Below are positions 1 through 15,497 of a stretch of DNA of 35,320 nucleotides, one piece after another; within the stretch, counting starts at the first letter, position 1; each line of letters starts with the position of its first letter. Position numbers and translations under genes: made by a program. The stretch lies in assembly GCA_019749875.1 (NCBI GenBank), contig JAIEPK010000155.1, positions 1 through 35,320 of the forward strand, read 5' to 3'. Under the pieces are notes generated by a model that saw only the letters and a list, made by a program, of their open reading frames with translations, was not told where the DNA came from and did no database searches. The stretch is from Candidatus Binatia bacterium (GTDB taxonomy: Bacteria > Desulfobacterota > Binatia > UBA12015).

Positions 1-1
1 C

Positions 2-289
2 ACGCCGCTCGCCAAGGCCGCGGTCGCGCCGACCATCGCGCACCGCGTGGTGCCGCACTACCCCGAGACGGCGCGCATGCGCGGCATCGAGGGCCAGGTC
101 GTCATCGAAGCCGTGATCGCGCGCGACGGCACCGTCGAGCCCGGCGTCAAGATCATCCAGTCCATTCCCGCCCTGGACGAGGCCGCCATCGAGGCGTTCC
201 GCCAGTGGCGCTTCACCCCGGGACGCGACGCGAGCGGCAAGCCGCTGCGCGTGATCCTGCAGGCTCCCGTTCGCTTCGTGCTCCGCTGA
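2..289 (+). CDS. TonB-family energy transducer, C-terminal end (partial)
   Basis: The reading frame is open from the left edge and ends at TGA 287-289, so only the last 95 codons are present. The visible part is a TonB C-terminal domain: a P-H-Y-P-E-T-A-R box, then GIEGQVVIEAVI, a DGTV turn, a SIPALDEAAIEAF helix and the closing QWRFTP signature, ending in a final beta strand. This domain reaches across the periplasm and touches the TonB box of outer-membrane receptors. The missing N-terminus should carry the membrane anchor and a proline-rich linker. exbB and exbD follow directly, so this is the transducer of a complete TonB-ExbB-ExbD system. A GTG at 47 could be read as a start but lies inside the conserved domain and is not the true one. 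Confidence 0.9.
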   Translation, partial: TPLAKAAVAPTIAHRVVPHYPETARMRGIEGQVVIEAVIARDGTVEPGVKIIQSIPALDEAAIEAFRQWRFTPGRDASGKPLRVILQAPVRFVLR

Positions 290-312
290 GGGCCTCTCTC
301 GAGGAAGGCTTC

Positions 313-1029
313 ATGCAGTTCTCCATCGTCGATCTCTGGCTCGCGACCGGCCCCGTCGGCAGGCTCGTCGTCCTCACGCTGCTCGCGATGTCGATCGCGT
401 CGATCTCGGTCGGCACCGAGCGCCTGCTCGCGCTGCGGCGCGCGCGACGTCTCTCGGCCGAGTTCCTCGCCGCGTGGCGCGACCGCGAAGAGCGTCCGTG
501 GAGCGGTGCCGTCGACGTCGCACCGGGTCCCGCCGATGCGTCACCCGCGGCGATCCTGCTGCGCGGCCTCGGCAACATCCTCGATCAGGGCATGCCGCAG
601 GAGATCGCGGAAAAGGCCTACGACCGGACTACCCGACGCCTGCTGCTCGCCTCGAGCGCACAGCTCCGCCGCGGCCTCGGCTTCCTCGCGACCGTCGGCT
701 CGACGGCGCCGTTCATCGGCCTCTTCGGAACGGTGCTCGGCATCGTCAACGCGTTCGCGCAGATGGCGTCGACCGGCCAGGGCGGCCTCGCCGTGGTCGC
801 GGGCGGCATCGCGGAGGCGCTGGTGACGACCGCGCTCGGCATCCTCGCCGCGATCCCGGCCTTGTGGATGTACAACAGCCTGAGCGGCGGCATCGTGGCG
901 CTCATGACCGAGATCGAGTGCGCCGCGGAGGAGCTCGCGGTGTCGGCGCTCGGTGCGGAGTACGCGGCACCGCTGCCCACGCCGCGACTCGTGCGGCGCG
1001 CCGCCGGCGGCCGGAGCGACGCGCGATGA
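313..1029 (+). CDS. exbB: ExbB/TolQ-type proton channel subunit
   Basis: 238 aa inner-membrane MotA/TolQ/ExbB-family protein. With ExbD it forms the proton channel that powers TonB. The ATG at 313 is preceded by GAGGAAGG at a good distance, and it lies just after the TonB-like gene stop. The protein has an N-terminal membrane helix (about residues 15-35), a cytoplasmic loop, then the family core: FLATVGSTAPFIGLFGTVLGI as the second membrane segment, and AGGIAEALVTTALGILAAIPA as the third. The short C-terminal tail is Arg-rich. Its stop codon overlaps the exbD start (ATGA), which indicates translational coupling. The TolQ alternative is less likely because the upstream gene ends in a TonB domain and no tolA, tolB or pal is present. 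Confidence 0.93.
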   Translation: MQFSIVDLWLATGPVGRLVVLTLLAMSIASISVGTERLLALRRARRLSAEFLAAWRDREERPWSGAVDVAPGPADASPAAILLRGLGNILDQGMPQEIAEKAYDRTTRRLLLASSAQLRRGLGFLATVGSTAPFIGLFGTVLGIVNAFAQMASTGQGGLAVVAGGIAEALVTTALGILAAIPALWMYNSLSGGIVALMTEIECAAEELAVSALGAEYAAPLPTPRLVRRAAGGRSDAR

Positions 1030-1445
1030 CCGGCCCGACGATCGACGACGGCGGCTTCCGCGCCGAGATCAACGTCACACCGCTGGTCGACGTGGTGCTC
1101 GTGCTGCTGGTGATCTTCATGGTGGTGACGCCGCTCATGAAGCAGGAGCAGCCCATCGACCTGCCGATCACGCGCGCGAGCCGTCCGGCCGAGGACACGC
1201 GCCAGCTCACGCTGACGATCGCCGCCGACGGCGGCTTGACGCTCGACGGTGCCGCGATCGCGCAGGACCGGCTCGGCGAGCGGCTCGAGGCGGTGTTCGC
1301 GGGACGCGAGGACCGCACGGTCTTCCTCGCCGCCGACAAGAGCCTGCCCTACGCGACCGTGGTGGAGGTCATCGACGCCTGCCGCGCGGCCGGCGTGTCG
1401 GCGATCGGGCTCGTGACCCAGAAGGCACCGCCCGCGGGTGCTTGA
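1026..1445 (+). CDS. exbD: ExbD/TolR-type biopolymer transport protein
   Basis: 139 aa partner of ExbB. A short cytoplasmic N-terminus with the motif INVTPLVDVVLVLLVIFMVV carries the single membrane helix. The Asp in PLVDVVLV is the family's essential proton-carrying residue. A periplasmic domain follows (about residues 50-135), ending in the typical VIDACRAAGVSAIGLVT segment. The ATG at 1026 overlaps the exbB stop by four bases. The next gene may begin at a GTG inside the last codons of exbD, so the operon probably continues into the hydrolase. Length and motif order are normal for the family. Confidence 0.93.
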   Translation: MTGPTIDDGGFRAEINVTPLVDVVLVLLVIFMVVTPLMKQEQPIDLPITRASRPAEDTRQLTLTIAADGGLTLDGAAIAQDRLGERLEAVFAGREDRTVFLAADKSLPYATVVEVIDACRAAGVSAIGLVTQKAPPAGA

Positions 1446-2562
1446 CGCGGCGTCCGCGCGCTCGCGCTGGTCGATGCACCCGCGCCGCGGGCGAGCACGC
1501 AGGCCGCGGCTCGCCGTGCAGCGCTCGCTCGCCGCCCTCGCGCTCGCCGCGCTCGTTCTGTACGGCATCGCTGCGGACGGGGTGGCGATGGCGATCGAGG
1601 GTGCACGGCGCGACGCCGACGGCAGGTTTCTCAACACGGCGGGCGAGCTCGGCTTCGCCGACCCGACGGTCACGCTGCCGTTCTTCGCGCGCCGTCTCGG
1701 CTCGATGCTCACCGGGCGCAGCGGGCACCCCGAGACGGTCGCCAACGACGGCGCGTTCCTGCGCGAGAACGCCCGCCACAGCGTGCCGACCGTGACCTGG
1801 ATCGGGCACGCGACCCTGCTCGTGCAGATGGACCACGCGAGCTTCCTGACCGACCCCATCTGGTCCGACCGCGCGAGCCCCGTCGGCTTCACCGGACCGA
1901 AGCGCGCGCAGGCGCCCGGCGTCGAGATCGAGGATCTGCCGCCGATCGACTTCGTGCTCGTGTCGCACAACCACTACGACCACCTCGACGTCGACACGCT
2001 GGCGACGCTCGCGAAGCGCGACCCGCACACGCTGTTCGTCGTGCCGCTCGAGAACGCGGTCACGCTGCGCGACGCCGGCGTGTCGAACGTCGTCGAGCTC
2101 GACTGGGGCGCGTCGGTCGAGATCGCGGGCCTGCGCGTGACGTGCCTGCCGACGCAGCACTGGAGCGGCCGCGGCCTCCTCGACCGCCGCGTGACCTTGT
2201 GGGGCTCGTACGCCGTCGCCGGCCCCGAGCACCGCTTCTACTTCGCGGGCGACACCGGCTACTTCCCCGGCTTCGCCGAGATCGGCGCCGCGCACGGCCC
2301 GTTCGACCTCGCCGCCATGCCGATCGGCGCGTACGCGCCGGCCGAGATGATGCAGCACTGGCACATGAACCCGGAAGAGGCGCTGCAGGCGAGCCGCGAC
2401 GTGCGCGCGCAGCGCATCGTGCCGATCCACTTCGGGACGTTCGACCTGAGCGACGAGGAGCCCGACGAGCCGCCGCGGCGTCTGCTTGACGCGGCCGCCG
2501 CGGGCGGGATGGCGCGCGAGGACGTGTACCTGCTGAAGATCGGCGAGACGCGCGCGTTCTAG
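1438..2562 (+). CDS. Metallo-beta-lactamase-fold hydrolase, NAPE-PLD/UlaG-like
   Basis: Metal-dependent hydrolase of 374 aa if started at GTG 1438, which overlaps exbD by 8 bases, or 362 aa from ATG 1474. Neither start has a strong ribosome site. A hydrophobic segment near residues 28-48 looks like a signal anchor. The core begins at TWIGHATLLVQM and LTDPIWSDRASP, then SHNHYDHLD supplies the metal ligands His177, His179, Asp181 and His182. Later ligand regions are LPTQHWSGRG, FAGDTGYFPGF and VPIHFGTFDL. This order matches bacterial homologues of N-acylphosphatidylethanolamine phospholipase D, so a lipid or phosphodiester substrate is plausible, but the substrate cannot be read from sequence. 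Overlap with exbD suggests co-transcription. A link to TonB-dependent uptake is only inferred. Confidence 0.85.
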   Translation: MLDAASARSRWSMHPRRGRARRPRLAVQRSLAALALAALVLYGIAADGVAMAIEGARRDADGRFLNTAGELGFADPTVTLPFFARRLGSMLTGRSGHPETVANDGAFLRENARHSVPTVTWIGHATLLVQMDHASFLTDPIWSDRASPVGFTGPKRAQAPGVEIEDLPPIDFVLVSHNHYDHLDVDTLATLAKRDPHTLFVVPLENAVTLRDAGVSNVVELDWGASVEIAGLRVTCLPTQHWSGRGLLDRRVTLWGSYAVAGPEHRFYFAGDTGYFPGFAEIGAAHGPFDLAAMPIGAYAPAEMMQHWHMNPEEALQASRDVRAQRIVPIHFGTFDLSDEEPDEPPRRLLDAAAAGGMAREDVYLLKIGETRAF

Positions 2563-2790
2563 TCCGGCCGCGCCTCTTCGCCAGCGACCGCGCGGCGGGC
2601 ATTCCGCGGTGCTCCGGACAGCAAAGGACGCGGCGTTCGCCCGCGCTCCGGCAGAACCGCTCATCTTTGCCATTGCACGGTCGTGCCGGATGGGGTGTGG
2701 TGGTCTCGTGGGTGCGCTTGACGACGAGTCGTGCCGGGGAGGTGAAGTGCCAGCAAGGTGGGCACGGGTGTCTCGTCGAAGGGACCGCGC

Positions 2791-3204
2791 ATGAACGACT
2801 TGACGCCCATCGTCTGGTCGGCGGAGTTCAGCGTCGGCGTTCCCGAGTTCGACCGGCAGCACCACCAGATCATCGACGTGATCAACCGGATGCTCGCCTC
2901 GCGCGAGACGTCGCCGCACTCGGAGACCGTATCGGACGCCCTCGACGAGCTGAGCCGCTTCGCCGACCGCCACTTCAAGGCCGAGGAAGCGTTCCTCACC
3001 GAGCGCAACTACTCCGCACTGGAGGAGCAGAAGGCGAGCCACCAGCTGTTCCGGCGGCGCACCCTCGAGCTGTGCCAGATGGCGCTCGAGCATACGTCGT
3101 CGACGCCGTCCGAGCTGCTCGCGTTCGTGCGCGGCTGGTGGGTGCGGCACATCCTCGAAGCGGACCGGCGCTACGCGCGCGAGCTCGGGCTGCTGCCGGG
3201 CTGA
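2791..3204 (+). CDS. Bacteriohemerythrin
   Basis: 137 aa single-domain hemerythrin, a four-helix bundle that binds O2 at a non-haem di-iron site. The ATG at 2791 is preceded by GAAGGGAC. Family signatures are clear: W9-S-x-x-F-S-V-G-V-x-E-F-D, then QHH (His24), HFKAEE (His61, Glu65), KASH (His84) and HILEAD (His120, Asp125). The usual fifth His, the first one in the common E-H-K-x-x-H motif, is Gln80 here (EQKASH). One iron ligand may therefore be missing or replaced, which could change the metal content or the chemistry. The gene stands alone: a 228-nt gap separates it from the hydrolase, and the remnant of pheT follows. A role in O2 or NO binding is the default guess. Confidence 0.9.
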   Translation: MNDLTPIVWSAEFSVGVPEFDRQHHQIIDVINRMLASRETSPHSETVSDALDELSRFADRHFKAEEAFLTERNYSALEEQKASHQLFRRRTLELCQMALEHTSSTPSELLAFVRGWWVRHILEADRRYARELGLLPG

Positions 3205-3208
3205 GGCT

Positions 3209-3229
3209 GGCCGCTCGCGGAGCGCGGCC
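3209..3229 (+). terminator. Possible hairpin after the hemerythrin gene
   Basis: Five bases after the hemerythrin stop, GGCCGC (3209-3214) can pair with GCGGCC (3224-3229) around a 9-base loop. No T-run follows, so it is at best an atypical terminator. In DNA this GC-rich such hairpins arise easily by chance. Confidence 0.25.
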
Positions 3230-3500
3230 CGACGCCGCGCCAGCGCTGCAGCGAGAGATCGGCGCGCGCCGCGCCCGGCAGGTAGCAGCCGCGGTCGAGC
3301 GGACGCAGCTCGATCGCGACGTCGAGGTAGAACGCGACGTAGCTCAGCACCGAGTGCAGGTCCGAGAGGCGCCTTGGGGTGCGCGACCAGCGCGCCGAGC
3401 AGCGGCTCGGTGCGGCTCAGGTGGTTCTCGTCGTCGTCGCGCACGACGGCCTCGCTGACGTCGAACACGCGGTGCGGGTACGCCGTCTTCGCGTCGGCGA
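3225..3500 (-). pseudogene. Decayed duplicate of an internal/C-terminal piece of pheT
   Basis: This stretch is a near copy of the intact pheT at about 4428-4741, in the same orientation. Between 3274-3497 and 4513-4738 I count about a dozen mismatches plus one 2-base gap (near 3370). Read on the minus strand it gives AKTAYPHRVFDVSEAVVR and DDDENHLSRTEPLLGALVAHP, then loses frame at the gap. A second frame regains RGCYLPG. Beyond that the match fades, with an eroded LQRW where pheT has LERW. No start or stop fits a working gene. It equals roughly PheT residues 443-515, with a worn tail to about 550. It lies about 1 kb beyond the 3' end of the real pheT, with the dienelactone hydrolase gene between them. 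It may be a relic of duplication or of a recombination event. Confidence 0.85.
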
Positions 3501-3614
3501 GACGCGCCCATTCTGATCGGAGTCATCGGCCTCGCTCCCGGGCACCTCGCAGACGACCGCGGGCGGGCTTGGACAAGGTCGCTCGGGACCCGGCGTCGCG
3601 GTATCAGGGGCGCC

Positions 3615-4343
3615 ATGAAGATCACGACCGAGCCGGTGGAGATCGCCGGGGTTCGCTGCCTCGTCGCCGCCCCCGCGCAGAAGTCCGCGACCGGGCGATT
3701 CCCCGCGATCCTCGCGTACTCCGACATCTTCCAGCTCACGCCGCCGCACGTGCGGATCGTGCAAAGACTTGCAGGCTACGGCTTCGTCGTGGTCGCACCC
3801 GAGATCTACACCCGCATCGAGCCCGCCGGCACGGTGCTGGACTTCGAGAAGGATCGCGAGCGCGCGCTCGCCGACGCCGAGAAGGTCGCGCTCGCGGACC
3901 TCGACCGGGACGTGCGCGCCGTTCTCGCCGCGGTGGCGCAGCGCAGCGACGTCGAGCCCACGAAGATTGGTGTCATCGGCTGGTGCTTCGGCGGGCACGT
4001 CGCGTTTCGCGCCGCGATGTTGCCGGAGGTCAGGGCGACGGCGTGCTGCTACGGCACCGGCATCCACAACGGCGAGCTCGGCGCGTCCAGGGACGCCGGC
4101 TCCCTCGAGCGCGCGCACGAGATCCGCGGCGAGCTGCTGCTCGTCTGGGGACGGAACGATCCGCACATCCCGGCCGACGGTCGCGCGCGCATCCACCGCC
4201 GGCTCGACGAGGCCGGCGTGCGCTTCGAGGCGCGCCTCTACGACGCCGAGCACACGTTCATGCGCGACGAAGGCGCTCGCTACGATGCCGAGGCGTCGGA
4301 TCGCGCGTTCGCTGCCGTGCTCGATCTCTTCCGCCGGATGTAG
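3615..4343 (+). CDS. Dienelactone hydrolase family protein
   Basis: 242 aa alpha/beta hydrolase of the DLH family, which classically hydrolyses dienelactones to maleylacetate in haloaromatic breakdown. Many members have other esterase roles. The nucleophile elbow is G-W-C-F-G-G with Cys124. Asp182 in GRNDPHIP and His213 in DAEHTFMRDE complete the Cys-Asp-His triad. Length is normal for the family (about 230-250 aa). The start ATG 3615 has GGGGCG just upstream, a modest ribosome site. The gene is convergent with pheT, with only 27 bases between the two stops and no clear terminator there. No other catabolic genes lie nearby, so the pathway is not indicated. Confidence 0.9.
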   Translation: MKITTEPVEIAGVRCLVAAPAQKSATGRFPAILAYSDIFQLTPPHVRIVQRLAGYGFVVVAPEIYTRIEPAGTVLDFEKDRERALADAEKVALADLDRDVRAVLAAVAQRSDVEPTKIGVIGWCFGGHVAFRAAMLPEVRATACCYGTGIHNGELGASRDAGSLERAHEIRGELLLVWGRNDPHIPADGRARIHRRLDEAGVRFEARLYDAEHTFMRDEGARYDAEASDRAFAAVLDLFRRM

Positions 4344-4370
4344 CTTCGCGCCGGTGACCGCGCTCGCCGG

Positions 4371-6068
4371 CTAGCGTGCGTCGGGGAGAGCGCTGATGCG
4401 CAGCTCGAGGTACGAGGCGGGCATCTTGACGCCCCAGCGCTCGAGGACCTCTGGGTGCAGCTCGCCGAGCATGCCGACGGACTTGCCGTCGAGCACCAGC
4501 TCCGCACCGCGGCCCGGCAGGAAGCAGCCGCGGTCGAGCGGCCGCAGCTCGATCGCCACGTCGAGGTAGAACGCGACGTAGCTCAGCACCGAGTGCAGGT
4601 CCGAGAAGCGCGCCTCGGGGTGCGCGACCAGCGCGCCGAGCAGCGGCTCGGTGCGGCTCAGGTGGTTCTCGTCGTCGTCGCGGACCACGGCCTCGCCGAC
4701 CTCGAAGACGCGGTGCGGGTACGCGGTCTTGGCGCTGCGCTCCTCGACCGCGAGCAGCGACGCGAGCAGCGTCGGGCGCAGCGCCGCGTAGCTCTCGCTC
4801 ATCGGGTTCTCGATCGCGACGACTTGCGAACCGTCGAGGCGGAGCCGCTCGGTGATGTCGACCTTCGAGCACAGGACGTTGGCGATGATCTCCTCGAAGC
4901 CGAGGCCGATCATCAGCTCGCGGACCTTGTCCTCGAGGAGCGTCAGGGTCGCGAGGCGGCCCGGTGTGAAGCGCGCCGGCCAGATCGGCTCGAGCGTGTT
5001 GACGCCGACGACGACCGCGAGGTCCTCGATGGCGTCGACCGGGTGCATGTAGTCCTGGCGGTACGGCGGCGTGCTGACGCGCGTCGTGTGCTTGGCGGTC
5101 GCGCTCTTCGCGACGTCGCAGCCGTAGGCGCGGAGCTGCTTCGCGATCTCGTCGTGCGAGAGCTCGCCGCCGAGCAGGCGGTTGAAGTCGTCGTTCGGGA
5201 CCTCGACCTCGTTGGGCAGCGGGTACGGCGCGCGCACCTCGCGACCGAACGGCGTGTCGAACGGGTACTCGACGACCATCGGCTCGATGGTCCAGCCGCG
5301 GTCTTCCAGGTCGACGGCGAGGATGTTCTCGACCAGCAGCACGCTCCGGAGATCCGTGCCGGTGGCCTCGACGAAGAGCTCGGTGTCGCCCGCGACAACT
5401 TCACCGATGGCGCGCGAGTTGATGATCGGCGGGAAGGACAGGATCTGGTCGTTCGCGTCCTGCAGCAGCGGCACCAGCGGCTTGCCGGCGAGGATGTGCG
5501 CGTACTCCTTGCCCTTCGGGTGCTGCTCCAGGATCTGCGCGAGGTTCAGCTCGTCGTCCATGCCGAGCGGGACGAACTTCGCGGTTCTGGGATCGACCAT
5601 CCGGTAGTGCACCGGGAACGCGATCTTCTGCGCGCGGTAGATGCCGACCGAGACCGTCTTCCGCTTCGCGCCGTAGCCGTCGCAGAGCTTCTCCTGCGAT
5701 TGGATCAGCTCGGCGAGCGACGCGTCGGTGACCGCGGGTCCGCGCGCGATGAAGCCCGCGACGTACGGGCGGATGTCGGCGGCCTTCGCGTCGGCGAGGA
5801 TCTTCTTGCCGCCGGGTGTGGCAGCGAACGCAGCGTGCGTCTCCGTCTTGCCGCGCCGGCGCGCGCGGATCTGGCGCGCGATGCCGGCCGCGGACCACAG
5901 GTCCGGACGGTTGGTGTCGTTGAGCTCGATGCGCGTGCGGCCGGTGGTCGGGTCCGGGCCCTTGAACTCGCCCTTCACCAGCTCCAGGTCGTCCTCGATG
6001 CGCGCGGGCTGATAGCCGTCGCCCACCAGCGCGTAGAAGTCGTCGAGGTCCACGAGAATCGTCGGCAT
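4371..6068 (-). CDS. pheT: Phenylalanyl-tRNA synthetase beta chain, archaeal/eukaryotic type
   Basis: 565 aa. Bacterial PheT is normally about 790 aa with an N-terminal tRNA-binding domain and a C-terminal anticodon-binding domain. This one has neither, and starts directly with MPTILVDLDDFYALVG as in archaeal and cytosolic eukaryotic enzymes. It contains the early RIELNDTNRPDLWSAAGIAR block, a B3/4 region (about 90-270) for editing of mischarged tRNA, and a B5 region (about 300-370, TPPYRQDYMHPVDAIEDLAV). The catalytic-like core ends with RTEPLLGALVAHPEARFSDL and LGELHPEVLERWGV. It forms a heterotetramer with PheS in the cytoplasm and charges tRNA-Phe. It lies 17 bases downstream of pheS in one operon. 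Transfer from an archaeal-type source, ancient or recent, is the likely origin. Confidence 0.93.
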   Translation of the reverse strand: MPTILVDLDDFYALVGDGYQPARIEDDLELVKGEFKGPDPTTGRTRIELNDTNRPDLWSAAGIARQIRARRRGKTETHAAFAATPGGKKILADAKAADIRPYVAGFIARGPAVTDASLAELIQSQEKLCDGYGAKRKTVSVGIYRAQKIAFPVHYRMVDPRTAKFVPLGMDDELNLAQILEQHPKGKEYAHILAGKPLVPLLQDANDQILSFPPIINSRAIGEVVAGDTELFVEATGTDLRSVLLVENILAVDLEDRGWTIEPMVVEYPFDTPFGREVRAPYPLPNEVEVPNDDFNRLLGGELSHDEIAKQLRAYGCDVAKSATAKHTTRVSTPPYRQDYMHPVDAIEDLAVVVGVNTLEPIWPARFTPGRLATLTLLEDKVRELMIGLGFEEIIANVLCSKVDITERLRLDGSQVVAIENPMSESYAALRPTLLASLLAVEERSAKTAYPHRVFEVGEAVVRDDDENHLSRTEPLLGALVAHPEARFSDLHSVLSYVAFYLDVAIELRPLDRGCFLPGRGAELVLDGKSVGMLGELHPEVLERWGVKMPASYLELRISALPDAR

Positions 6069-6085
6069 CGTCGTCGCTCGCTCGT

Positions 6086-7621
6086 CTAGCCGAGGATCGG
6101 GCTCTTGCGGCTGCGCAGGAAGTCCAGGTCGGGCGAGAACAGATCGCGGATGTCGTCGATGCCGAGCGCGACCATCGCCATGCGGTCGAGGCCGAGGCCC
6201 CACGCGATGACCGGAACGTCGATGCCGAACGGCTTCGTGACTTCGGGGCGGAAGATGCCGCCGCCGCCCAGCTCCATCCAGCCGATCTTCGGGTGGCGCA
6301 TGTGCGCCTCGACACTTGGTTCGGTGAACGGGAAGTAACCGGGAGTGAAGTACATCTCCTCGGCGCGCGCGATCTCCAGGCCGAAGAGCTTCATCAGGCC
6401 CAGCAGGTGGCGGAGGTGGACCTCCTCGCCGAGGACGATGCCCTCGATCTGGAAGAAGTCCGGCGCGTGCGTGGCGTCGACGTCGTCGAAGCGGAAGCAG
6501 CGCGCGATCGCGAAGTACTTGCCGGGGATGTTCGGGTTCTTGCCGAGCTGTCTCGCCGAGAGTGCCGTGCCTTGCGATCGCAGGATGAGTCTTCTGGTCG
6601 CGTCCCGGTCGAAGGGATAGCGCCAGCCGATGGATCCCGTCGCGCCGCCGTTCTCGTGCGCCGCGGCGACGTTGGAGGCCGCCGGCTCCGGCAGGTCCTT
6701 CGCGCGCGGCATGCCCTCGACGAAGTAGACGTCGTGGATCGCGCGCGCCGGGTGGAACTGCGGCATGAAGAGCGCGTCGTTGTTCCAGAACTCCGACTCG
6801 ACGATCGAGCCGCGCATCTCCTCGAAGCCGAAGGAGATCAGCTTGCGGCGGACGGCGTCGAGGAACTCGCGGTAGGGGTGTCTTCGGCCGCCCGTGCTGC
6901 GTGGGGGCGGGATCTGGAGGTTGTAGGCGCGGAACTTCACGTTCCGCCAGGAGCCGTCGCGCAGCATCTCGGGCGTGAGCTGCGAGACCTCGTCGGCGAC
7001 GTCGCCTGCTTTGGCTGCGAGGTCCCTGCCGAGGGCCGTGAGCTGGAGGGTGCGGCGCTTCTGCTCGCCGCGGCGGATGCCGAGGGAGGCCTTGCCGGGC
7101 TTGCCGGCGAGGTCGGTCGCGCGCTTCCACTCTCTTGCGCCGAGATCGCTCTCGAAGAAGCGCTCGCCGGTCGCGAGCTTCGTGACGAGCTGCTGGTCCG
7201 CCTCGATCGCCGACCAGTCGGCCTTGGCGACCAGCGTGAACTTGCCCTGCGCGACGGTGATGAGCTTCTGCTTCTTCAGCGCGCCGATCGCGGCGGAGAG
7301 GTCCTTCGCGTCGCCGAGGTCGGCCATCGCGGCGGGGCCCTGCTCGAGCTTGCGGCGGATCGCGAGCTCGGGGATCGCGTCCTTCGCGAACTGCTGGCCG
7401 GTCTCGTCGAGGGCGACGAAGGGGGTCGAGTCCTCGCTTGCGACCTCCACGGCGGCCTTGGCGAGGAGCCACTGGCTGGCCATGCGGGCCTGGGACTCCT
7501 GGATGGCGGCGAGCTCGGCGATGCGGGCCTCGCCGGCGGCGGCGTCCGTGCCGGCGAGGGCGCGGAGGACCTTGGCCTCGAGAGGGTGGAGTGTCGTGAG
7601 GAGGTCGGCGAGGTCGGTCAT
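6086..7621 (-). CDS. pheS: Phenylalanyl-tRNA synthetase alpha chain, archaeal/eukaryotic type
   Basis: 511 aa from ATG 7619-7621, much longer than bacterial PheS (about 340 aa). The extra N-terminal part (about 1-190) is the winged-helix region of the archaeal/cytosolic enzyme (LHPLEAKVLRAL, TVAQGKFTLV), instead of the bacterial coiled coil. The class II catalytic core follows: HPYREFLDAVRRKLISFGFEEM, MPQFHPARAIHDVYF (motif 1 region), CFRFDDVDATHAPDFFQIEG (motif 2), YFPFTEPSVEAHM, and motif 3 GLGLDRMAMV. It makes Phe-AMP and transfers Phe to tRNA-Phe. An upstream in-frame ATG at 7645 would add eight Arg-rich residues and is less likely. It is the first gene of the pheS-pheT operon. Spirochaetes are a known bacterial group with this enzyme type. 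Confidence 0.94.
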   Translation of the reverse strand: MTDLADLLTTLHPLEAKVLRALAGTDAAAGEARIAELAAIQESQARMASQWLLAKAAVEVASEDSTPFVALDETGQQFAKDAIPELAIRRKLEQGPAAMADLGDAKDLSAAIGALKKQKLITVAQGKFTLVAKADWSAIEADQQLVTKLATGERFFESDLGAREWKRATDLAGKPGKASLGIRRGEQKRRTLQLTALGRDLAAKAGDVADEVSQLTPEMLRDGSWRNVKFRAYNLQIPPPRSTGGRRHPYREFLDAVRRKLISFGFEEMRGSIVESEFWNNDALFMPQFHPARAIHDVYFVEGMPRAKDLPEPAASNVAAAHENGGATGSIGWRYPFDRDATRRLILRSQGTALSARQLGKNPNIPGKYFAIARCFRFDDVDATHAPDFFQIEGIVLGEEVHLRHLLGLMKLFGLEIARAEEMYFTPGYFPFTEPSVEAHMRHPKIGWMELGGGGIFRPEVTKPFGIDVPVIAWGLGLDRMAMVALGIDDIRDLFSPDLDFLRSRKSPILG

Positions 7622-8161
7622 GGCGGCTCGCGGCCGGGGCCGCAACCGCGTGTTTATCCGTCACGTCGTTGCGGCGCCATGGTGACGGCGGTGCGGCGCT
7701 CGCGGTGTGTGGAGCAGCGATCAGGACCGATCGCCTCCGAAGCGCGCGTCGCGTGATCGCGGCGATCGCTGCGGAGACGTCGCGGTTGCCATCCGTCAGT
7801 ATGGCGCCCATCGGGCGCGCACGCCCGGACACCTCGCGAATTCCGAGCGCGTGGACGTGCGGCGGCTGGTTGCAGGTGAAGCGTGTCAACAACAGCCGGC
7901 ACAAGCCCGGGAACCCTCCCATCCACGGCATCCGTCGCCGTCCGGCTCGTCCGTCCAATGCTCCGGTTATGGCGGCGCACCGGACCAAGTTTCGACGGCG
8001 TGTAGTTCAATAGATCGCCTCCGCCTTCGTCGCCCTGAAGACCGAAACACGGCAGGACTTGGCGGGAAAAACAGAAGGCGAGCGGGACTCCGTCAATCGG
8101 CGTCCGACCGTCGGGCCTCACCTCGACTGAGGTTTGCCCGCTGCGCGGGGTACTCACGACG
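7622..8161. other. 540-bp region with no supported gene
   Basis: This lies between the start of pheS and the end of the low-GC cassette-like gene. Open frames here have no domain signal and no consistent codon pattern. The pheS promoter should be at the left end, but I find no convincing -35/-10 pair. On the right side I looked for a second attC after the stop at 8162. Motifs such as GGTTATGG (near 7970) and GTGTCAAC (near 7883) are present, but no paired core boxes with a folded middle, so the end of the second cassette is unclear. Confidence 0.6.
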
Positions 8162-8788
8162 CTACTTCTTAGGCATTCCCGGTACCCCCGGAACCAGATT
8201 CCCTTGGGTCGCGGCCGTTACGAGATGGCCGTTCGCGTCTAGCCTCACCCAGCCCATGGTGACCATGTTGTTGACTAGGATCGAGAACTCCTCATCACTG
8301 AACGTGAAGCGGCTCTTCAGAAGATTCTTTATGTCGACCGGCGAGTACTTGCCTGAGGACTCTGTGACCATCGCTATTAGGGACGACCCAACGTCCTGCA
8401 TTCGTACGGCGGTTTGCATCTGCGTGGCCATGCCAGGTATTCCGCCGTCCATTGTCGAGGCATACATGCCGTCTGTTCGCACGGCGATTGCACGTTTGGA
8501 CAGCAGAGAAAGCACCGTTCTCTTTAACGCCTGCGTTGAGATCTCCTTCGTTGGTAGAACATCAGCGAAGTCTGGTGCGGCCAACTGGAACTTCTGTTGA
8601 ATTTGCTGCAATGCGATTCCGGTTGTGCCTGCATCCACGACGATCGAAAAGACCGTCACTTCCTGCCACTCCTTGATCGCTGACGATCGCAGGTCTGCTC
8701 GGATTGAGTTCGCACTGATCGCTAGTGACACTACCGCCGCGGCGGTCGACACAATGCCAGCGAGTTTGGCAACGCGTTCGAAGTCCAT
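8162..8788 (-). CDS. Hypothetical membrane-anchored protein with winged-helix-like regions
   Basis: 208 aa, family not recognised. The start ATG 8786-8788 has a strong GGAGAGGA ribosome site. Residues 10-27 (LAGIVSTAAAVVSLAISA) form one N-terminal membrane helix. The rest is cytoplasmic or periplasmic. Two segments have the helix-helix-strand pattern of winged helices: about 40-110, ending LSLLSKRAIAVRTDGMY, and about 140-195, ending VNNMVTMGWVRLDANGHLV. The tail is Pro/Gly-rich (GVPGMPKK). Base use is much less GC-rich than in neighbours, which suggests transfer. It begins about 50 bases after an attC-like site and shares orientation with the nuclease upstream, so it reads as a gene cassette. 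A role as partner, sensor or effector beside the nuclease is possible but not shown. Confidence 0.75.
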   Translation of the reverse strand: MDFERVAKLAGIVSTAAAVVSLAISANSIRADLRSSAIKEWQEVTVFSIVVDAGTTGIALQQIQQKFQLAAPDFADVLPTKEISTQALKRTVLSLLSKRAIAVRTDGMYASTMDGGIPGMATQMQTAVRMQDVGSSLIAMVTESSGKYSPVDIKNLLKSRFTFSDEEFSILVNNMVTMGWVRLDANGHLVTAATQGNLVPGVPGMPKK

Positions 8789-8838
8789 CTCGGATCCTCT
8801 CCAAAATTGCGTGAATCAGAGCGTTTAGGCTGTCAGCG

Positions 8839-8897
8839 GGCTAACGCCTTGCCGATGGGCGGCGGCCGAGGGCCGTCCGCTGAACGGCTTGTTATGC
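8839..8897 (-). mobile_element. Integron attC recombination site (59-base element)
   Basis: Exactly 59 bp between the simple sites. On the minus strand the left box is GCATAAC (8891-8897), then AAGCCGTTCAGCGGA, close to the common attC left consensus TAACAAKTCGYTCMAGCSGA with one base missing. The right end reads AGGCGTTAGCC (core box 8839-8845), which fits RRCGTTAGSC. The middle folds: GCGG and CGGCC pair with CCGC and GGCCG around a GAG loop, leaving one unpaired base, as attC hairpins do. It follows the 3' end of the nuclease gene and precedes the next gene start, exactly where a cassette attC should sit. No integrase gene is visible, so this would be a cassette cluster lacking integrase or the edge of a larger array. 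Confidence 0.8.
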
Positions 8898-8927
8898 GAT
8901 CCACCTTGCCTTGTCCGCGTGCGCCGG

Positions 8928-9863
8928 TCACGTCGTGACACGCCGCAATTCAAGCAGGATCTTGCCATGGCGGACGATTGCGTCGACCTTTGCGCGCATG
9001 GCGTCCGCGAAGGTGGTCATCCCTGACAACACAAGCGCGAGGTCTTCTCCCGTCATCAGGATGATACGGGGTGCATCACCCGAATACTTAGCGACGGCAT
9101 TCTGATCGAAGCCGGTCGCCGAGATGAAGAGCCCTCGAGTACTTTGGGCCTTTCCCCTAATTTTCCCGTCAAAGACCGAAAGGTCCTCCTGCACCGATGG
9201 GGCTTTTGTCCACTTCGCTTCGACAAGGTAATCAAACTTCTCATAGCGAAAGTGACCGTCGATCTGTTCACCCGGATGCCGGTAAGGGGGCGAGAACTCG
9301 AACTCACATAGTTGCAGGAGGTCGAAGAACAGCGCTTCAAGCTTGTATCCACGGGCCTGGGGCGTGACGTCCGCCGGAGAGGAGAGCTCTAAAAAGGACT
9401 CATTCAGCTCCTCAAGCCGGCGCTGCTGAGCCTGGCGTTCCGCCTGACTCTCCTTATACGTTTCGCGAGCGGCCTGTCGTTCCCGCCGCTTGAGTTCAGC
9501 ATCGATCGGGTCGTCGCCGACGAGCTGGCGAAACTCATCGAGCATCTGCTTGGCCTTCGCCACATCCAGGTTATCTCGGTCCACCGGCCCCCTGAGGCGG
9601 TAGAAACCGGAGACGAGGGCCTCAATCGTGTCTAGTTCTCCGGCCTCTTCCAGATCACCGAGAATATTCCGCATTAACTCGTATTTGTTGAATGACTCTC
9701 GGGGGTATCGGTCTCGCAGTGATCGAGAAACGCCACAGGAATCAAGAAAGCCGTGGAACCCGTTCCAGAACCAGAAACAAGCGCCAGCGAGACTGACCAT
9801 AGCCTCCTTTGCCTCATAGCTGGGTCGCTTTGTCATCAACCTAAGGCCTTCCGATGCAGCCAT
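8928..9863 (-). CDS. Restriction endonuclease-like protein (Mrr-type PD-(D/E)XK fold)
   Basis: 311 aa. The N-terminal half is helical, with a charged coiled-coil stretch near 120-160 (ELKRRERQAARETYKES). The C-terminal half is a nuclease core: GYKLEALFFDLLQLC, then HPGEQIDGHF (active-site Asp), then DYLVEAKW (the E-x-K pair), then GKAQSTRGLFISATGF and a final IILMTGEDLALVL segment. This is the layout of Mrr-like restriction endonucleases, which cut DNA, often modified DNA. No methylase lies beside it. The start is ATG 9861-9863; an in-frame ATG nine codons later (MTKRPS) is also possible. The gene is less GC-rich than the chromosome and is followed 31 bases later by an attC, so it looks like an integron cassette. 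Anti-phage or anti-plasmid defence is a reasonable inference. Confidence 0.82.
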   Translation of the reverse strand: MAASEGLRLMTKRPSYEAKEAMVSLAGACFWFWNGFHGFLDSCGVSRSLRDRYPRESFNKYELMRNILGDLEEAGELDTIEALVSGFYRLRGPVDRDNLDVAKAKQMLDEFRQLVGDDPIDAELKRRERQAARETYKESQAERQAQQRRLEELNESFLELSSPADVTPQARGYKLEALFFDLLQLCEFEFSPPYRHPGEQIDGHFRYEKFDYLVEAKWTKAPSVQEDLSVFDGKIRGKAQSTRGLFISATGFDQNAVAKYSGDAPRIILMTGEDLALVLSGMTTFADAMRAKVDAIVRHGKILLELRRVTT

Positions 9864-10017
9864 GTCGCGTAACCCAAGTTGGACAGGTGTGCTTGTACGA
9901 TCACAAGCCGACGGTGCCTGACGGAGGATTGCGCGCGGTCAAGCTAAGCGCCGCGTTCGGGTTTTGCAACACGCTACGATGCGTTAACGCGTCGAGCTCG
10001 CGCACGAATGTTGGAGC

Positions 10018-10035
10018 TGTCCGCTGGAGCGGACA
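10018..10035. promoter_or_regulatory. 18-bp perfect palindrome
   Basis: TGTCCGCT (10018-10025) and AGCGGACA (10028-10035) are perfect inverted repeats around GG. It lies about 155 bases upstream of the nuclease gene on the minus strand and near the edge of the low-GC segment. It could be an operator or a structural hairpin; there is no T-run to suggest a terminator. Confidence 0.4.
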
Positions 10036-10147
10036 CTGAGAGCGCAGGCGCGTCTACCGTTGTCGCAACGCGCAGCCTTCGGCGCCAAGTGCGCGCTCCC
10101 CGCCTCCCCAGATCGACGATCTCCACCTCGACCGCGCGGGCCAGCTT

Positions 10148-10330
10148 CTACTTCGTCGGCCAAAGGGCCTGCGGCTCGCTCGCGCACACCCCGCTGCCGC
10201 ACGCGCCGGGGTCGGTCGGCTCGCACGCCGGCCCGGCGTGCGAGCCGCCGCGGCACTTCCACTCGCCGAACGACGCGTCGCACGGCGGATCGACGGCCAC
10301 GTGCGCGAAGTCCAGGATTTGATCGTGGCT
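10148..10330 (-). pseudogene. Remnant of a Cys-rich protein gene, C-terminal end
   Basis: On the minus strand a frame ending at TAG 10148-10150 reads QILDFAHVAVDPPCDASF, then GEWKCRGGSHAGPACEP, TDPGACGSGVCASEP and QALWPTK. Nearly every codon over about 55 codons ends in G or C, and the spaced Cys residues look like a real small extracellular domain. There is no usable start codon: upstream the frame turns into Arg/Gly-rich noise. I read it as the surviving 3' end of a lost gene. The family is not recognised. A functional small protein with an unusual start is less likely. Confidence 0.4.
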
Positions 10331-10624
10331 CTGCCGCCGACCGCCCCGCCGCTGCGCGCTCGGCCACCGCCCGGGACCGCGCCGGCGTCGCTCGACGAGG
10401 CATGAGCCACCCGTCGCCCTGCCCCCACCGACGCTGGCCGCCGGACAGTCGCGTCCGCCCGGATTTCCCTTAACAGAGCACCGTCCGCTACGTACGTTGC
10501 GAGGCGGTCCGGGCCGCCGTGTCGGGGAGTCGCGATGTCCGATGACCGTGCTGGCGTCGAATCAGGCTTTCGGAGTTTCCTGTCCGTACGAGGATCGCTG
10601 CCGTGCCGTCGATCGAGGGGTTCC

Positions 10625-12706
10625 ATGGCCAGATTTCTCGCCGTCGCACTCCTCTTGCTCGCTCCTGCGCTCTGGCAACGCCCAGCAGCAGCGAGTTCTG
10701 ACGACTCGTGCGACCCGACCTGGATGCTGACGCACCGCGAGCGCACCGGCTGCGACGACATGCCGATCCTGCAGCCGGGAAACGACACGCGCACCACCCT
10801 GCTGCTGCTGACCCTCGACCGCCGCGGCAAGCCGATCACGCCGCCGCCCGCCAACGGCACGCCCGATCCCTTCGCCGAGTGGCCGACCTTCGCCGAACGC
10901 TTCACCTCGCAGCCCGCGGACACCGAACGCACCAACGACGAGTACGCGTACGGCGAGGGCTCGCGTTGCCTCACCAACAAGCCGGGCGCCGCGGCCTTCA
11001 CCGAGCAAGTGAAGGCCGCGACCGAGATCCCGGAGTCCGAGCGCACGACTTTGATCGCCGCACGCGACGGACTCGCACCGGACTGCACCGCCGCCGCTCC
11101 CACCGGCGGCGCCGCGATCGCGAAGGCGCTCGAGCCGGTGCAGTCGCCGCTCGGCAAGAGCTTCGCCGCCTACCTCATGGGTGCGCAGGCCTTCTACGAC
11201 GGCGACTACGACGCGGCGAAGAAGCACTTCTCGGGTCTCACTGGCGTCAAGCAGCCGTGGCTCGCGGAGACCGCGCGCTACATGCTGGCACGCGTCGAGG
11301 TGAACCGCGCGCAGATCGACGCCTTCGACGAGTACGGTAACCGCAAAGGCGATCCGGCCGACCCGAAGGTCATCGACGCGGCGGAAGCCGGATTCAAGGA
11401 GTACCTGAGCGCCTATCCGCAAGGCGCCTACGCCGCCTCGGCGCGAGGACTGCTGCGCCGGGTCTACTGGCTCGGCGGGCGGACGAAGCCGCTCGCCGAC
11501 GCCTACGTGGCGAGCCTCACCGCCGACACGCCGGATCCGGGCGGGATGGACGACATCGCCCTGCTCGACGAGATCGACAACAAGCTGCTGATGCCGTCGG
11601 ACGTCGCCGCGGCGAGCGATCCGATCCTGCTCGCGGTCGATGACCTCACCCGCATGCGCGACGGCAGCACCTTCCGTCGCGCGGACATCGAGGCGCAGCG
11701 TCCGAGCTTCGCGTCGAACACGCCGCTCTTCGAGTATCTGCTGGCCGCGCACGACCTCTACGTCGGGAACAAGCCCGACGCCGTGCTCGCCGCGATCCCT
11801 GCCGTCGCGCCGAAGGCACCGCTCAGCCATGTCGAGTTCAGCCGGCAGATGCTGCGCGGCATGGCGCTGGAGGCGCAGAAGGACCCCGGCGCGAGAGAGC
11901 ACTGGATGGCTCTGCTTCCGGCCGCCGTGCAGCCGCTGCAGCGTCCCGCGGTCGAGCTCGCGCTCGCCCTGCACGACGAGCAGGCCGGCAAGCTCGACGC
12001 GGTGTTCGCCGCGGACTCGCCGATCAGCAACGCGAGCATGCGCGAGATCCTGCTGCGGAAGATCGCCGATGCGGACCTGCTGCGGCGTCAAGCGAAGGAC
12101 ACCACGCTGCCGCAGCACGAGCGCGACGTGGCACTCTACGTCCTGCTCTACAAGGAGGTGACGCGCGGGAAGTACGCCGACTTCGTGAAGGACGTCGAGC
12201 TGGTCCGCGCCGATGCGCCGGCCGAGAGCTTCTACGGCGATCTCGGCACCACCGAGACGCCACCACTCGGCGTCTTCACGCAGACGACGACGCTCGGCGA
12301 CTACGGCTGCGGTCCGCTGAAGGAGACGGCGGCACAGCTCGCGAAGAATCCAACCGCGCCGAAAGCCCAGCTCTGCCTCGCCGACTTCATGCGCGCGAAC
12401 GGCTTCGACAACAACATGCTCGACTGGCAGCCGAAGGAGCCGCAGCTCGGCAGCACGCCGTCGCGGTTCAAGGGCGAGCCGTACGCGCGCTTCGAGGTCT
12501 ACAAGGCGCTGATCGCCAACCCGAAGACGCCGCCGGACGACAGGGCCTACGCCCTCTATCGCGCGGTGAACTGCTACGCGCCGGCGCAGAGCAACTCCTG
12601 CGGCGGCGAAGACGTCCCACAGAAGCAGCGCAAGGCCTGGTTCCAGGAGCTGAAGAAGCGCTACCCGAAGTCGACGTGGGCGAAGGAGCTGCAGCTCTAC
12701 TGGTGA
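10625..12706 (+). CDS. Secreted TPR-like protein paired with DUF3142
   Basis: 693 aa from ATG 10625. An in-frame ATG at 10535 would put 30 extra residues before a clear signal peptide (MARFLAVALLLLAPALWQ, cleavage near AAA-SS), so 10625 is preferred. The mature protein is mainly helical. About residues 150-280 show tetratricopeptide-like hairpins (FAAYLMGAQAFYDGDYDAAKKHF, FKEYLSAYPQGAYAASARGLL) similar to outer-membrane assembly or cell-envelope scaffold proteins. A second helical part holds YLLAAHDLYVGNKPDAVLAA. The C-terminal part has ELKKRYPKSTWAKELQLYW, which again looks TPR-like. Its stop is 4 bases before the next start, so it is coupled to the DUF3142 gene. Function unknown; a periplasmic protein-interaction scaffold is the best guess. 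Confidence 0.8.
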   Translation: MARFLAVALLLLAPALWQRPAAASSDDSCDPTWMLTHRERTGCDDMPILQPGNDTRTTLLLLTLDRRGKPITPPPANGTPDPFAEWPTFAERFTSQPADTERTNDEYAYGEGSRCLTNKPGAAAFTEQVKAATEIPESERTTLIAARDGLAPDCTAAAPTGGAAIAKALEPVQSPLGKSFAAYLMGAQAFYDGDYDAAKKHFSGLTGVKQPWLAETARYMLARVEVNRAQIDAFDEYGNRKGDPADPKVIDAAEAGFKEYLSAYPQGAYAASARGLLRRVYWLGGRTKPLADAYVASLTADTPDPGGMDDIALLDEIDNKLLMPSDVAAASDPILLAVDDLTRMRDGSTFRRADIEAQRPSFASNTPLFEYLLAAHDLYVGNKPDAVLAAIPAVAPKAPLSHVEFSRQMLRGMALEAQKDPGAREHWMALLPAAVQPLQRPAVELALALHDEQAGKLDAVFAADSPISNASMREILLRKIADADLLRRQAKDTTLPQHERDVALYVLLYKEVTRGKYADFVKDVELVRADAPAESFYGDLGTTETPPLGVFTQTTTLGDYGCGPLKETAAQLAKNPTAPKAQLCLADFMRANGFDNNMLDWQPKEPQLGSTPSRFKGEPYARFEVYKALIANPKTPPDDRAYALYRAVNCYAPAQSNSCGGEDVPQKQRKAWFQELKKRYPKSTWAKELQLYW

Positions 12707-12710
12707 GCCC

Positions 12711-13409
12711 ATGCGCGCCCTCTTCGCAGCAATTCTTCTGGCGCTGCTGGTCCCGCCGGCCGCCGCGGCGCCGACCGATGCGGCCCGCTACGACGCCTTC
12801 TTCCTCTGGGCGGGCGTCAAGCCGCAGCCCGTGCTGGCACACGCGCGCCGCCTCTACCTGCTGCAGGGGCAGGTCGAAGACGGCGACCCGGTGCGGCTGG
12901 TGGCGCAGCGTCCCGCGGTGCCGAAGATCCCGGACGCCGACGTCTGGATGGTGGTGCGCGTGGAGACGCTCGACTGGCCGGACCCGGTCTACAAGCAGGT
13001 GCTCGCGGCGCTCGCGCGCTGGCGCGCCGCGGGGAGCAACGTCGTCGGACTGCAGATCGACTTCGACGCCGGCACGCGACACCTCGAGCGCTACGCGTCC
13101 TTCCTCGCCGACCTGCGGAAGCGCCTGCCGCGCGAGTATCGTCTGTCGATCACCGGCCTGCTCGACTGGAGCAGCAACGGCGATCCCGCCGGGCTCGCGG
13201 CGCTGGGCGGCGTGGTCGACGAGGTCGTGCTGCAGATCTACCAGGGCCGTCGTGTGATCCCCGGCTACGCCGGCTATCTCGCGGCGCTCGACCGGCTGCG
13301 GGTTCCGTTTCGCATCGGGCTCCTGCAGGGCGGCGAGTGGGAGGCGCCGGATCGGCTCGCCGCCAATCCGTGGTTCCGCGGCTACGTGGTCTTCCTGGTC
13401 AACGAGTAG
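12711..13409 (+). CDS. DUF3142 domain protein
   Basis: 232 aa with a signal peptide (MRALFAAILLALLVPPAAA). The rest is a DUF3142 domain: LYLLQGQV, VWMVVRVETLDW, the core VVGLQIDFDAGTRHLERY, LSITGLLDWS, EVVLQIYQGR and a closing PFRIGLLQGGEWEAP/GYVVFLVNE. The pattern of Asp-containing strand ends (IDFD, RVETLDW) resembles a TIM-barrel glycoside-hydrolase-like fold, but no activity is established for the family. It overlaps no other gene and is tightly linked to the TPR-like protein upstream, so the two probably act together in the periplasm. Its last 35 codons have a degraded echo at 27593-27685. Confidence 0.85.
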   Translation: MRALFAAILLALLVPPAAAAPTDAARYDAFFLWAGVKPQPVLAHARRLYLLQGQVEDGDPVRLVAQRPAVPKIPDADVWMVVRVETLDWPDPVYKQVLAALARWRAAGSNVVGLQIDFDAGTRHLERYASFLADLRKRLPREYRLSITGLLDWSSNGDPAGLAALGGVVDEVVLQIYQGRRVIPGYAGYLAALDRLRVPFRIGLLQGGEWEAPDRLAANPWFRGYVVFLVNE

Positions 13410-13443
13410 TTCCGCGGCGAGCGCGTTCGCCGCCGGCGCATGG

Positions 13444-13602
13444 ATGATCCGCGTCGACGAGACTCTCGCGCGGGGTGACTTCATGTCGACCCTGCCCTTG
13501 TCCCCGCACACGCTCGACGCGATCGTGAGGCCGCAGCGATCGACCGCGCGGCGCAGGTCTCGACGGCCGACGCCCGAACGCGCGGCTGGCGCAGGGGACT
13601 AA
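13444..13602 (+). CDS. Possible small ORF ahead of DUF4160
   Basis: A 52-aa frame (ATG 13444 to TAA 13600-13602) ends three bases before the DUF4160 start. It reads MIRVDETLARGDFMSTLPLS and continues to an Arg-rich tail (TARRRSRRPTPERAAGAGD). The first half could be real and the second half looks like random high-GC sequence. No ribosome site is obvious. It may be a leader peptide, a decayed antitoxin, or nothing. Confidence 0.25.
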   Translation: MIRVDETLARGDFMSTLPLSPHTLDAIVRPQRSTARRRSRRPTPERAAGAGD

Positions 13603-13605
13603 CCG

Positions 13606-13842
13606 ATGCCGACGATCTGGCGGAACGGCCCGTATCGCTTCTTCTTCTACGCCAGCGACCGTCCCGAGCCGATGCACGTCCACGTGGAGGGCGGCGGGGG
13701 TTCTGCGAAGTTCTGGCTTCGACCGGTCCACCTTCGATCCAGTCGCGGCCTCGCGCGACATGAGCTATCTCGTCTCGAAGGCATCGTCGTCGCACGTCAC
13801 GAGCAGTTCGTGAGGGCATGGAATGAGTACTTCGAGGGCTGA
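13606..13842 (+). CDS. DUF4160 domain protein
   Basis: 78 aa, full family length. It carries the DUF4160 pattern: MPTIWRNGPYRFFFYASD, then R-P-E-P-M-H-V-H-V, AKFWLRPVHL, a helix ELSRLEGIVVARHEQFV and the closing W-N-E-Y-F. The paired His residues in PMHVHV are the family hallmark and may bind metal or act in catalysis. DUF4160 genes are usually found just before DUF2442 genes, as here, with a 20-base overlap. That arrangement resembles a toxin-antitoxin pair, but neither activity nor which partner is the toxin is established. Confidence 0.85.
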   Translation: MPTIWRNGPYRFFFYASDRPEPMHVHVEGGGGSAKFWLRPVHLRSSRGLARHELSRLEGIVVARHEQFVRAWNEYFEG

Positions 13843-14194
13843 GCAGCCGACGCCGTCGGCCGTGGCCGTGAAGGTCACGGGCGATGCGTTCTCGGTGGAG
13901 CTCGACGACGGTCGCACCGTCACGGTGCCGCTCGGATGGTATCCCCGCCTTGCCCACGCCAGCGCCCAAGAACGGCGGAACTGGCGGCTGATCGGGACTG
14001 GAGAGGGTATCCACTGGCCGGATCTCGATGAGGACGTCAGCGTCGAGGGCATTCTGCTCGGACGCCCGTCGGCGGAGAGCCAGGCATCGCTCGAACGCTG
14101 GCTCGCGACCAGAGAGCCACGGGCCGGCAAAGGAATCCGACCGGCGCGCGCAAGAGCCGCCAGGTCGGCTGGGCGACGTCGCATCCGCGGCTGA
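13823..14194 (+). CDS. DUF2442 domain protein
   Basis: 123 aa; the DUF2442 domain occupies about residues 10-90. Key segments: VKVTGDAFSVELDDGRTVTVPLGWYPRL, then ERRNWRLIGTGEGIHWPDLDEDVSVEGIL. The Trp-Pro-Asp-Leu-Asp-Glu-Asp motif is characteristic. The remaining tail is Arg/Ala-rich and probably disordered. The ATG at 13823 lies inside the end of the DUF4160 gene, so translation is coupled. Some relatives have a DNA-binding role in autoregulation, which would fit an antitoxin, but this is inference. Confidence 0.85.
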   Translation: MSTSRAEQPTPSAVAVKVTGDAFSVELDDGRTVTVPLGWYPRLAHASAQERRNWRLIGTGEGIHWPDLDEDVSVEGILLGRPSAESQASLERWLATREPRAGKGIRPARARAARSAGRRRIRG

Positions 14195-14261
14195 TCGTCG
14201 GCGTCACGGCGGCGCCAGGGCCCCCACGCCTCGGTTTCGAAAGGACCGATCGCGACTCCTC

Positions 14262-14313
14262 TTGTTCATACTTCGCGCTAAAGTCTTAATAGCCCGACCG
14301 GCTATTCAGACTT
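14262..14313 (+). promoter_or_regulatory. Promoter with overlapping operator-like palindrome upstream of the Fic gene
   Basis: AAGTCTTAATAGCC (14281-14294) and GGCTATTCAGACTT (14300-14313) are inverted repeats of 14 bases with a single mismatch, separated by CGACC. A weak promoter fits around it: TTGTTC (14262-14267), a 17-base spacer, and CTTAAT (14285-14290), which sits inside the left arm. A protein bound to the palindrome would block transcription. The fic start is 20 bases further on. The Fic protein has a C-terminal winged-helix-like segment, so self-repression is plausible. Confidence 0.65.
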
Positions 14314-14333
14314 CCTGAACGAGCGCGAGGCGA

Positions 14334-15497
14334 ATGAACCGAGGGAAAACAGGCCGTTACGAGGTCACGAACGTCGCGGGAGACCCGGTCCGCGCCTTCG
14401 TTCCGTCCCCGCTGCCACCCGTCCCTCCACTGGCGTACGACGCCGGGCTTCAGCTCACTCTCGAGTCGGCCGTCCTCGCCGTCGGACGCCTCGACGGGGT
14501 CTCGACCCTGCTGCCGGACACGTCGTTCTTCCTCTACTCCTACGTCCGCAAGGAGGCCGTGCTGTCGTCACAGATCGAGGGCACGCAGTCCTCGCTGTCC
14601 GACCTGCTGCTGTTCGAGCTGGCGGAGGCGCCCGGTGTGCCGCTCGACGACGTGGTGGAGGTGTCGAACTACGTCGCCGCGCTGGATCACGGCCTCGCCC
14701 GGCTGCGTGCGGGATTCCCGGTCTCGAACCGCCTGATCCGCGAGATCCACGGCGAGCTGCTCGCGCGGGGCCGCGGCAGCGGCAAGGACCCGGGCGAGTT
14801 CCGTCGCTCGCAGAATTGGATCGGCGGCAGCCGGCCGGCGACCGCAGCCTTCGTCCCGCCGCCGCACACCGCCGTGCCGGATTGCATGAGCGCGCTCGAG
14901 AGCTTCCTCCACGCGCGCGACGACGGGCTGCCGATGCTCGTCCGTGCCGGCCTCGCGCACGTGCAGTTCGAGACCATCCATCCGTTTCTCGACGGCAACG
15001 GGCGCGTCGGCCGTCTCCTCATCACGCTGCTTCTCTGTCAGGCGGGAATCCTGCACGAGCCGCTGCTGTACCTGAGCCTCTACCTGAAGCAGCGTCGCGC
15101 GGACTACTACGCCCTGCTCGACCGCGTCCGCCGAGACGGCGACTGGGAGGCGTGGCTCGCCTTCTTCCTCGACGGCGTCCGGGTCACGGCAGAAGGTGCC
15201 GTGGACACCGCCCAGCGCGTCGCCGCAATGTTCCGCGACGACCGCGCGATGATCGAGCCGACGGGACGTCGCGCCGGCTCCGCGCTGCGGGTACACGAGG
15301 CGCTGAAGGCACGTCCGATCCTCTCGCTGCCGGCGATCCGCGATCGGACCGGACTCTCGTTTCCCGCTGCGTCCTCGGCCATCGACCTCCTCGCCGACAT
15401 CGGGATCGTGCGCGAGCTGACGGGCAAGCGGCGCAACCGGCTGTTCGTCTACGACCGCTACCTCGCGATCCTGAACGAAGGAGCCGAACCGCCGTGA
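14334..15497 (+). CDS. Fic family protein (self-inhibited class II, with C-terminal winged helix)
   Basis: 387 aa. Fic enzymes transfer AMP or a related group from a nucleotide to Ser/Thr/Tyr hydroxyls of target proteins. The catalytic loop is H216-P-F-L-D-G-N-G-R-V-G-R, a perfect match to HPFx(D/E)GNGRxxR. The inhibitory helix motif (S/T)xxxE(G/N) is present before the Fic core as S78-S-Q-I-E82-G83, which makes this a class II enzyme whose own Glu blocks ATP. The N-terminal part (about 1-60) packs against the core. Residues 310-375 (LSLPAIRDRTGLSFPAASSAI, RLFVYDRYL) look like a winged helix that could bind DNA or targets. Start ATG 14334 has GCGAGG upstream. The gene faces the PIN/Phd pair and has its own palindrome. 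Confidence 0.92.
   Translation: MNRGKTGRYEVTNVAGDPVRAFVPSPLPPVPPLAYDAGLQLTLESAVLAVGRLDGVSTLLPDTSFFLYSYVRKEAVLSSQIEGTQSSLSDLLLFELAEAPGVPLDDVVEVSNYVAALDHGLARLRAGFPVSNRLIREIHGELLARGRGSGKDPGEFRRSQNWIGGSRPATAAFVPPPHTAVPDCMSALESFLHARDDGLPMLVRAGLAHVQFETIHPFLDGNGRVGRLLITLLLCQAGILHEPLLYLSLYLKQRRADYYALLDRVRRDGDWEAWLAFFLDGVRVTAEGAVDTAQRVAAMFRDDRAMIEPTGRRAGSALRVHEALKARPILSLPAIRDRTGLSFPAASSAIDLLADIGIVRELTGKRRNRLFVYDRYLAILNEGAEPP

Follow-up and report, generated by a model that had tools for sequence, protein, structure and literature searches.

The 35,320-nucleotide stretch of DNA analysed here (hereafter the window) makes up a complete contig (C661) in a metagenome-type assembly of 7.78 Mb and 680 contigs, with 3.57% contamination, and it contains a partial copy of pheT beside the intact gene, which raises the question of how such a copy arose and whether it does anything for the cell. 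On the + strand, tolQ-like and tolR-like genes are followed by an intact gene for a metallo-beta-lactamase-fold hydrolase (MBL; 1438-2562; PF12706, 165.9 bits; the start is that of the ORF caller and the real one may be further in), a bacteriohemerythrin gene (2791-3204; NF033749, 103.4 bits), the pheT fragment and a dienelactone hydrolase-family gene (3615-4343; PF01738, 123.3 bits). Beyond the latter, pheT (4371-6068, 565 aa) and then an archaeal-type pheS (6086-7645, about 512-519 aa; NF003210, 537.4 bits) lie on the - strand. The genome of the window (G000) was compared with G001, the sole other genome of its genus (relevant contig VGTK01000041), and with G002, a genome from another genus.

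By local alignment, positions 3265-3493 match 4503-4734 in pheT over 229 aligned bases with 12 mismatches (94.8% identity) and three single-base gaps, two of which can be read as one 2-base gap. A search of the whole genome returned only two strong places, at 607 and 341 bits, the next best reaching 46 bits; the preliminary description, which had proposed a partial duplicate beside the intact pheT from bases, mismatches and gaps counted by eye, was accurate on each of these points. Both copies are antisense to the + strand, and third codon positions of pheT hold nine of the 12 mismatches. The segment thus significantly resembles a portion of a functional gene in the same genome, as a gene remnant should. 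No second allele of it was found elsewhere in the assembly, and a plasmid source was rejected after a comparison with 72,556 plasmids gave no match.

The fragment itself (3266-3493, - strand, about codons 445-521) lacks both ends of the gene, carries frameshifting deletions and shows relaxed constraint. Over 70 alignable codons it differs from intact pheT by seven synonymous and four amino-acid changes. When G001 and G002 are taken as outgroups, four amino-acid changes, one synonymous change and two to three deletions fall on the branch of the fragment, against three synonymous changes (four including the left-edge codon) and no amino-acid change on that of intact pheT, the remaining differences being ambiguous (Fisher p 0.04-0.07 for the contrast). 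This asymmetry, which emerged from the comparison of synonymous and non-synonymous changes that had been suggested for the segment, indicates that the fragment is dead and that the cell uses the other copy; judged from its sequence, the fragment is a scar predicted to make no enzyme, not a second synthetase. A function of its own, as an antisense RNA, a peptide or a regulator, would be in accord with the presence of the fragment and with nothing beyond it. Since the fragment is frameshifted and absent from G001 and G002, no Rfam match was found in positions 1-9000 and a simple scan of 2500-4520 found no promoter-like site, we consider such a function the least probable of all the explanations weighed here.

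Intact pheT is separated from its counterpart in G001 by a dN of 0.08 and a dS of 0.27, and the two copies in the window may have separated at perhaps half the depth of that dS. By identity the duplication appears younger than the genus split but not very recent, such that the earlier claim of a recent copy holds relatively (about seven synonymous differences in 70 codons) and fails if very recent is meant.

Abruptly decaying flanks had also been reported for the copy. This applies to the left edge, where a search of positions 3205-3265 gave no detectable signal of pheT tail homology, whereas the right edge is a junction: directly after the fragment, + strand positions 3491-3517 read CGC GTC GGC GAG ACG CGC CCA TTC TGA, which translates as RVGETRPF-stop and resembles the C-termini of MBL in the window (KIGETRAF-stop), in G001 (KIGETRPF-stop) and in G002 (RVGETREF-stop). 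That the fragment runs at this edge into what reads as a copy of the last MBL codons, to which it is directly fused, is a new finding. The 21-base motif TCGGCGAGACGCGCNCNTTCT occurs exactly at 2540 (the end of MBL) and at 3494 (the fragment edge), and nowhere else in the genome. The tail match, which was spotted by inspection and is hence post hoc and spans only 23-27 bases, was reached by none of 1000 shuffles in a targeted test, and that of tail plus spacer was equalled in 0-1 of 1000; the match of the spacer alone (3518-3589, + strand, a possible diverged copy of the post-MBL spacer at 2563-2619) is weak, at 34-47 of 1000. Genome-wide uniqueness, frame, stop codon and position at the fragment edge argue against a chance resemblance to the MBL tail. 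Two other sources of the tail were considered and rejected: a second MBL paralogue, as G000, G001 and G002 have only one MBL gene each, and a one-mismatch occurrence of the motif in contig C381, which reads ...GETHPFYELARR... and lies within another gene. The MBL gene at 1438-2562 is the left neighbour of the locus and the source or a homologue of the duplicated tail.

A head-to-tail repeat of a unit composed of MBL tail, spacer and pheT 3' part should place a pheT fragment with its 5' side against the end of MBL, and the fusion observed here has the features of such a duplication, in that the end of the first copy meets the start of the second and the outer flanks are repeated. The unit therefore occurs in two head-to-tail copies. 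Copy one contains the whole MBL gene, the hemerythrin gene and the dead pheT fragment, and copy two contains only the last MBL codons, the dienelactone hydrolase gene and the complete, functional pheT; the join of pheT, at about codon 445, to the MBL tail is the duplication join. An alternative is that the assembly misjoined two strains, the fragment being the live pheT of the other strain, and a contig from an assembly as fragmented and contaminated as this one lends itself to that explanation. However, the bases common to both sides of the join amount to about three (GCG, 3491-3493), which is consistent with the 3-10 bp of microhomology looked for at an illegitimate join, although not significant, and is too short for a graph misjoin. 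Moreover, the frameshifts and amino-acid changes of the fragment, which are its own, are missing from G001 and G002, and the assembly has no separate allelic contig. We therefore regard the assembly artefact that had been raised for this locus as improbable.

A synteny comparison with relatives, as had been advised, showed that G001 and G002 both keep MBL and pheT in convergent order without a duplicate. In G001, pheS-pheT faces the same MBL gene (84% at the amino-acid level) with the stops ~130 bp apart and nothing between them, and in G002 tolQ-tolR-MBL (68-69% at the amino-acid level for MBL) is followed by a PhoX-type gene and then by pheT-pheS. These layouts indicate that the convergent order is the older one and that the gap between the two genes gained genes more than once. 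The contents of the gap differ in all three genomes with this order, being nothing in G001, the PhoX-type gene in G002 and the hemerythrin and hydrolase genes in the window (gap coordinates: window 2563-4370; L061:6473-8176; L026:6430-6560), and the gap seems to have gained genes repeatedly.

The same comparison bears on the suggestion that the duplicate came from recombination during acquisition of the archaeal-type PheRS. PheT of the window is of the archaeal type, scoring 475.2 bits with TIGR00471 (cut-off 282.65) and 115 bits with the bacterial TIGR00472 (cut-off 402.65). Since G001 and G002 carry the same archaeal-type pheST beside the same MBL gene without a duplicate, the duplication is unrelated to that acquisition, and the apparent extra pheT is a dead scar that dates from after the line of this genome already had the archaeal-type enzyme.

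Some genomic islands rebuild the 3' end of the gene that they target, and here too part of a gene has been displaced from an intact copy, with cargo separating the two; the locus differs from such islands in having neither integrase nor attachment site and in that its fragment does not include the 3' end of pheT. Insertion of an integrative element into pheT, with the element providing a new 3' end, would account for this arrangement, but a single hydrolase gene and no recombinase lie between the copies, the fragment lacks the displaced 3' end and its stop codon and is bordered instead by the MBL tail, and intact pheT is equally close to G001 in its 3' part and in its remainder. We consider such an element very improbable.

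The two cargo genes each occur in one copy of the unit only. The family's 13 other genomes yielded no relative of the hemerythrin, and in the class (148 genomes) only three other genomes gave matches, all distant, the best at 37% identity; the best relative of the dienelactone hydrolase in other genomes of the family has 40% identity and lies elsewhere in the genome. With no close relative of either in the family, both genes look acquired.

How the second copy of the unit came to lie here is answered less firmly. We favour, at somewhat better than an even chance, the reading that the locus bears the scar of an insertion-duplication where MBL and pheT converge, probably with the allele of a relative. 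A fragment of the MBL-pheT locus of a close relative would have entered the cell, most likely in one event, and would either have formed a circle that integrated through a single crossover or have been attached homologously on one side and through 3-5 bp of microhomology on the other. The incoming DNA would have carried a second spacer together with a cargo gene, and the pheT fragment would then have decayed. Both routes have precedents, ligated linear DNA being known to integrate by a single crossover and other DNA to be joined through microhomology (PMC3240628). On this reading the locus would resemble the products of such single-crossover events, which leave flanking direct repeats, or of homology-facilitated illegitimate recombination (HFIR), in which foreign DNA is inserted by one-sided homology with a microhomology join; it differs in that the end product alone is seen, donor and event being reconstructed from it, and in that the coupled deletion of recipient DNA that is usual in HFIR is not evident.

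The main rival is a plain tandem duplication, within the lineage, of its own MBL tail, spacer and pheT 3' part, after which the cargo genes would have been lost reciprocally or inserted separately, the fragment would have decayed and gene conversion would perhaps have kept the pheT parts alike. This requires no donor, predicts the join of pheT to the MBL tail exactly as it is found and is in keeping with a fragment branch that looks neutral. The fragment is also closest to pheT of the window itself (94.8% identity vs 91.9% to G001), which counts against an origin from the allele of a relative. Nevertheless, the cell's own DNA would be expected to yield copies of equal likeness throughout, whereas past the join the tail copy has 4 differences from the resident tail in 23 bases, and the spacer is likewise far more diverged than the pheT copies, which differ by 5%. 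In AU tests of three groupings, that of the fragment with pheT of the window was not favoured when pheT alone was used (p 0.107) and was rejected when the tail was added (p 0.022; about 240 bases, with one source assumed). Extra steps are also needed to give each copy a different cargo gene. On this sequence evidence a plain tandem duplication seems possible but doubtful, and import of a relative's allele somewhat likelier.

Import of a relative's allele has difficulties of its own. The absence of pheT tail homology from 3205-3265 means that a further deletion is needed, and a search for a donor genome with a second allele found none. A mosaic breakpoint within the repeat was placed best at 3441, with a permutation p of 0.05 that rose to 0.16-0.45 with indels or without the join base. 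A variant in which the 3' part of intact pheT was the imported segment was rejected, as the profile of identity between this gene and that of G001 has no step in that part. A broader proposal, that single cargo genes are captured without any mobile element, is offered tentatively and is rather unlikely: a self-ligated MBL-pheT fragment of a relative, carrying the hydrolase gene, would enter by one crossover, and the essential tRNA-synthetase gene would serve as a recurrent landing site (for the hemerythrin and hydrolase genes here and the PhoX-type gene in G002).

Whichever route was taken, the kind of event is an ordinary local duplication and belongs to ordinary genome evolution, and the preliminary description had named the right class of explanation in duplication and deletion. 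Like the partial tandem duplications and pseudogene fragments of other bacteria, the locus has a truncated, frameshifted second copy in the same orientation with an abrupt join; unlike them, its unit covers two convergent genes and holds different cargo in each copy. At most, it offers a readable example of a bacterial gene gap gaining genes with partial duplication of both neighbours.

The archaeal-type PheRS is patchy in the family (loci considered: window 4371-7645, L098-L100 in G010-G012, and L101-L104). It is present in three genera (six genomes over the TIGR00471 cut-off); in the other three genera the only matches seen were either sub-threshold and bacterial-type-like, in frames of about 800-820 aa, or very weak, and no other genome among 198 sampled in the phylum passes the TIGR00471 cut-off. 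The two archaeal-type groups of the family are only ~44% identical, and proteins of Nitrospirae and Spirochaetales are not firmly separated from them, so that the family may have acquired the enzyme twice. Some spirochaetes are known to have undergone a similar transfer (PMC3191353).

Finally, pheS in G001 adjoins the counterpart of window 23439-24552, and the window has about 15 kb extra upstream of pheS (about 7700-23440). This region encodes a protein with an Mrr-type restriction endonuclease domain (8928-9863), a Fic protein matching the PADLOC SoFic model (14334-15497) and a PIN-domain protein (15552-16274), as well as a beta-lactamase-family protein and an RCC1-repeat protein.
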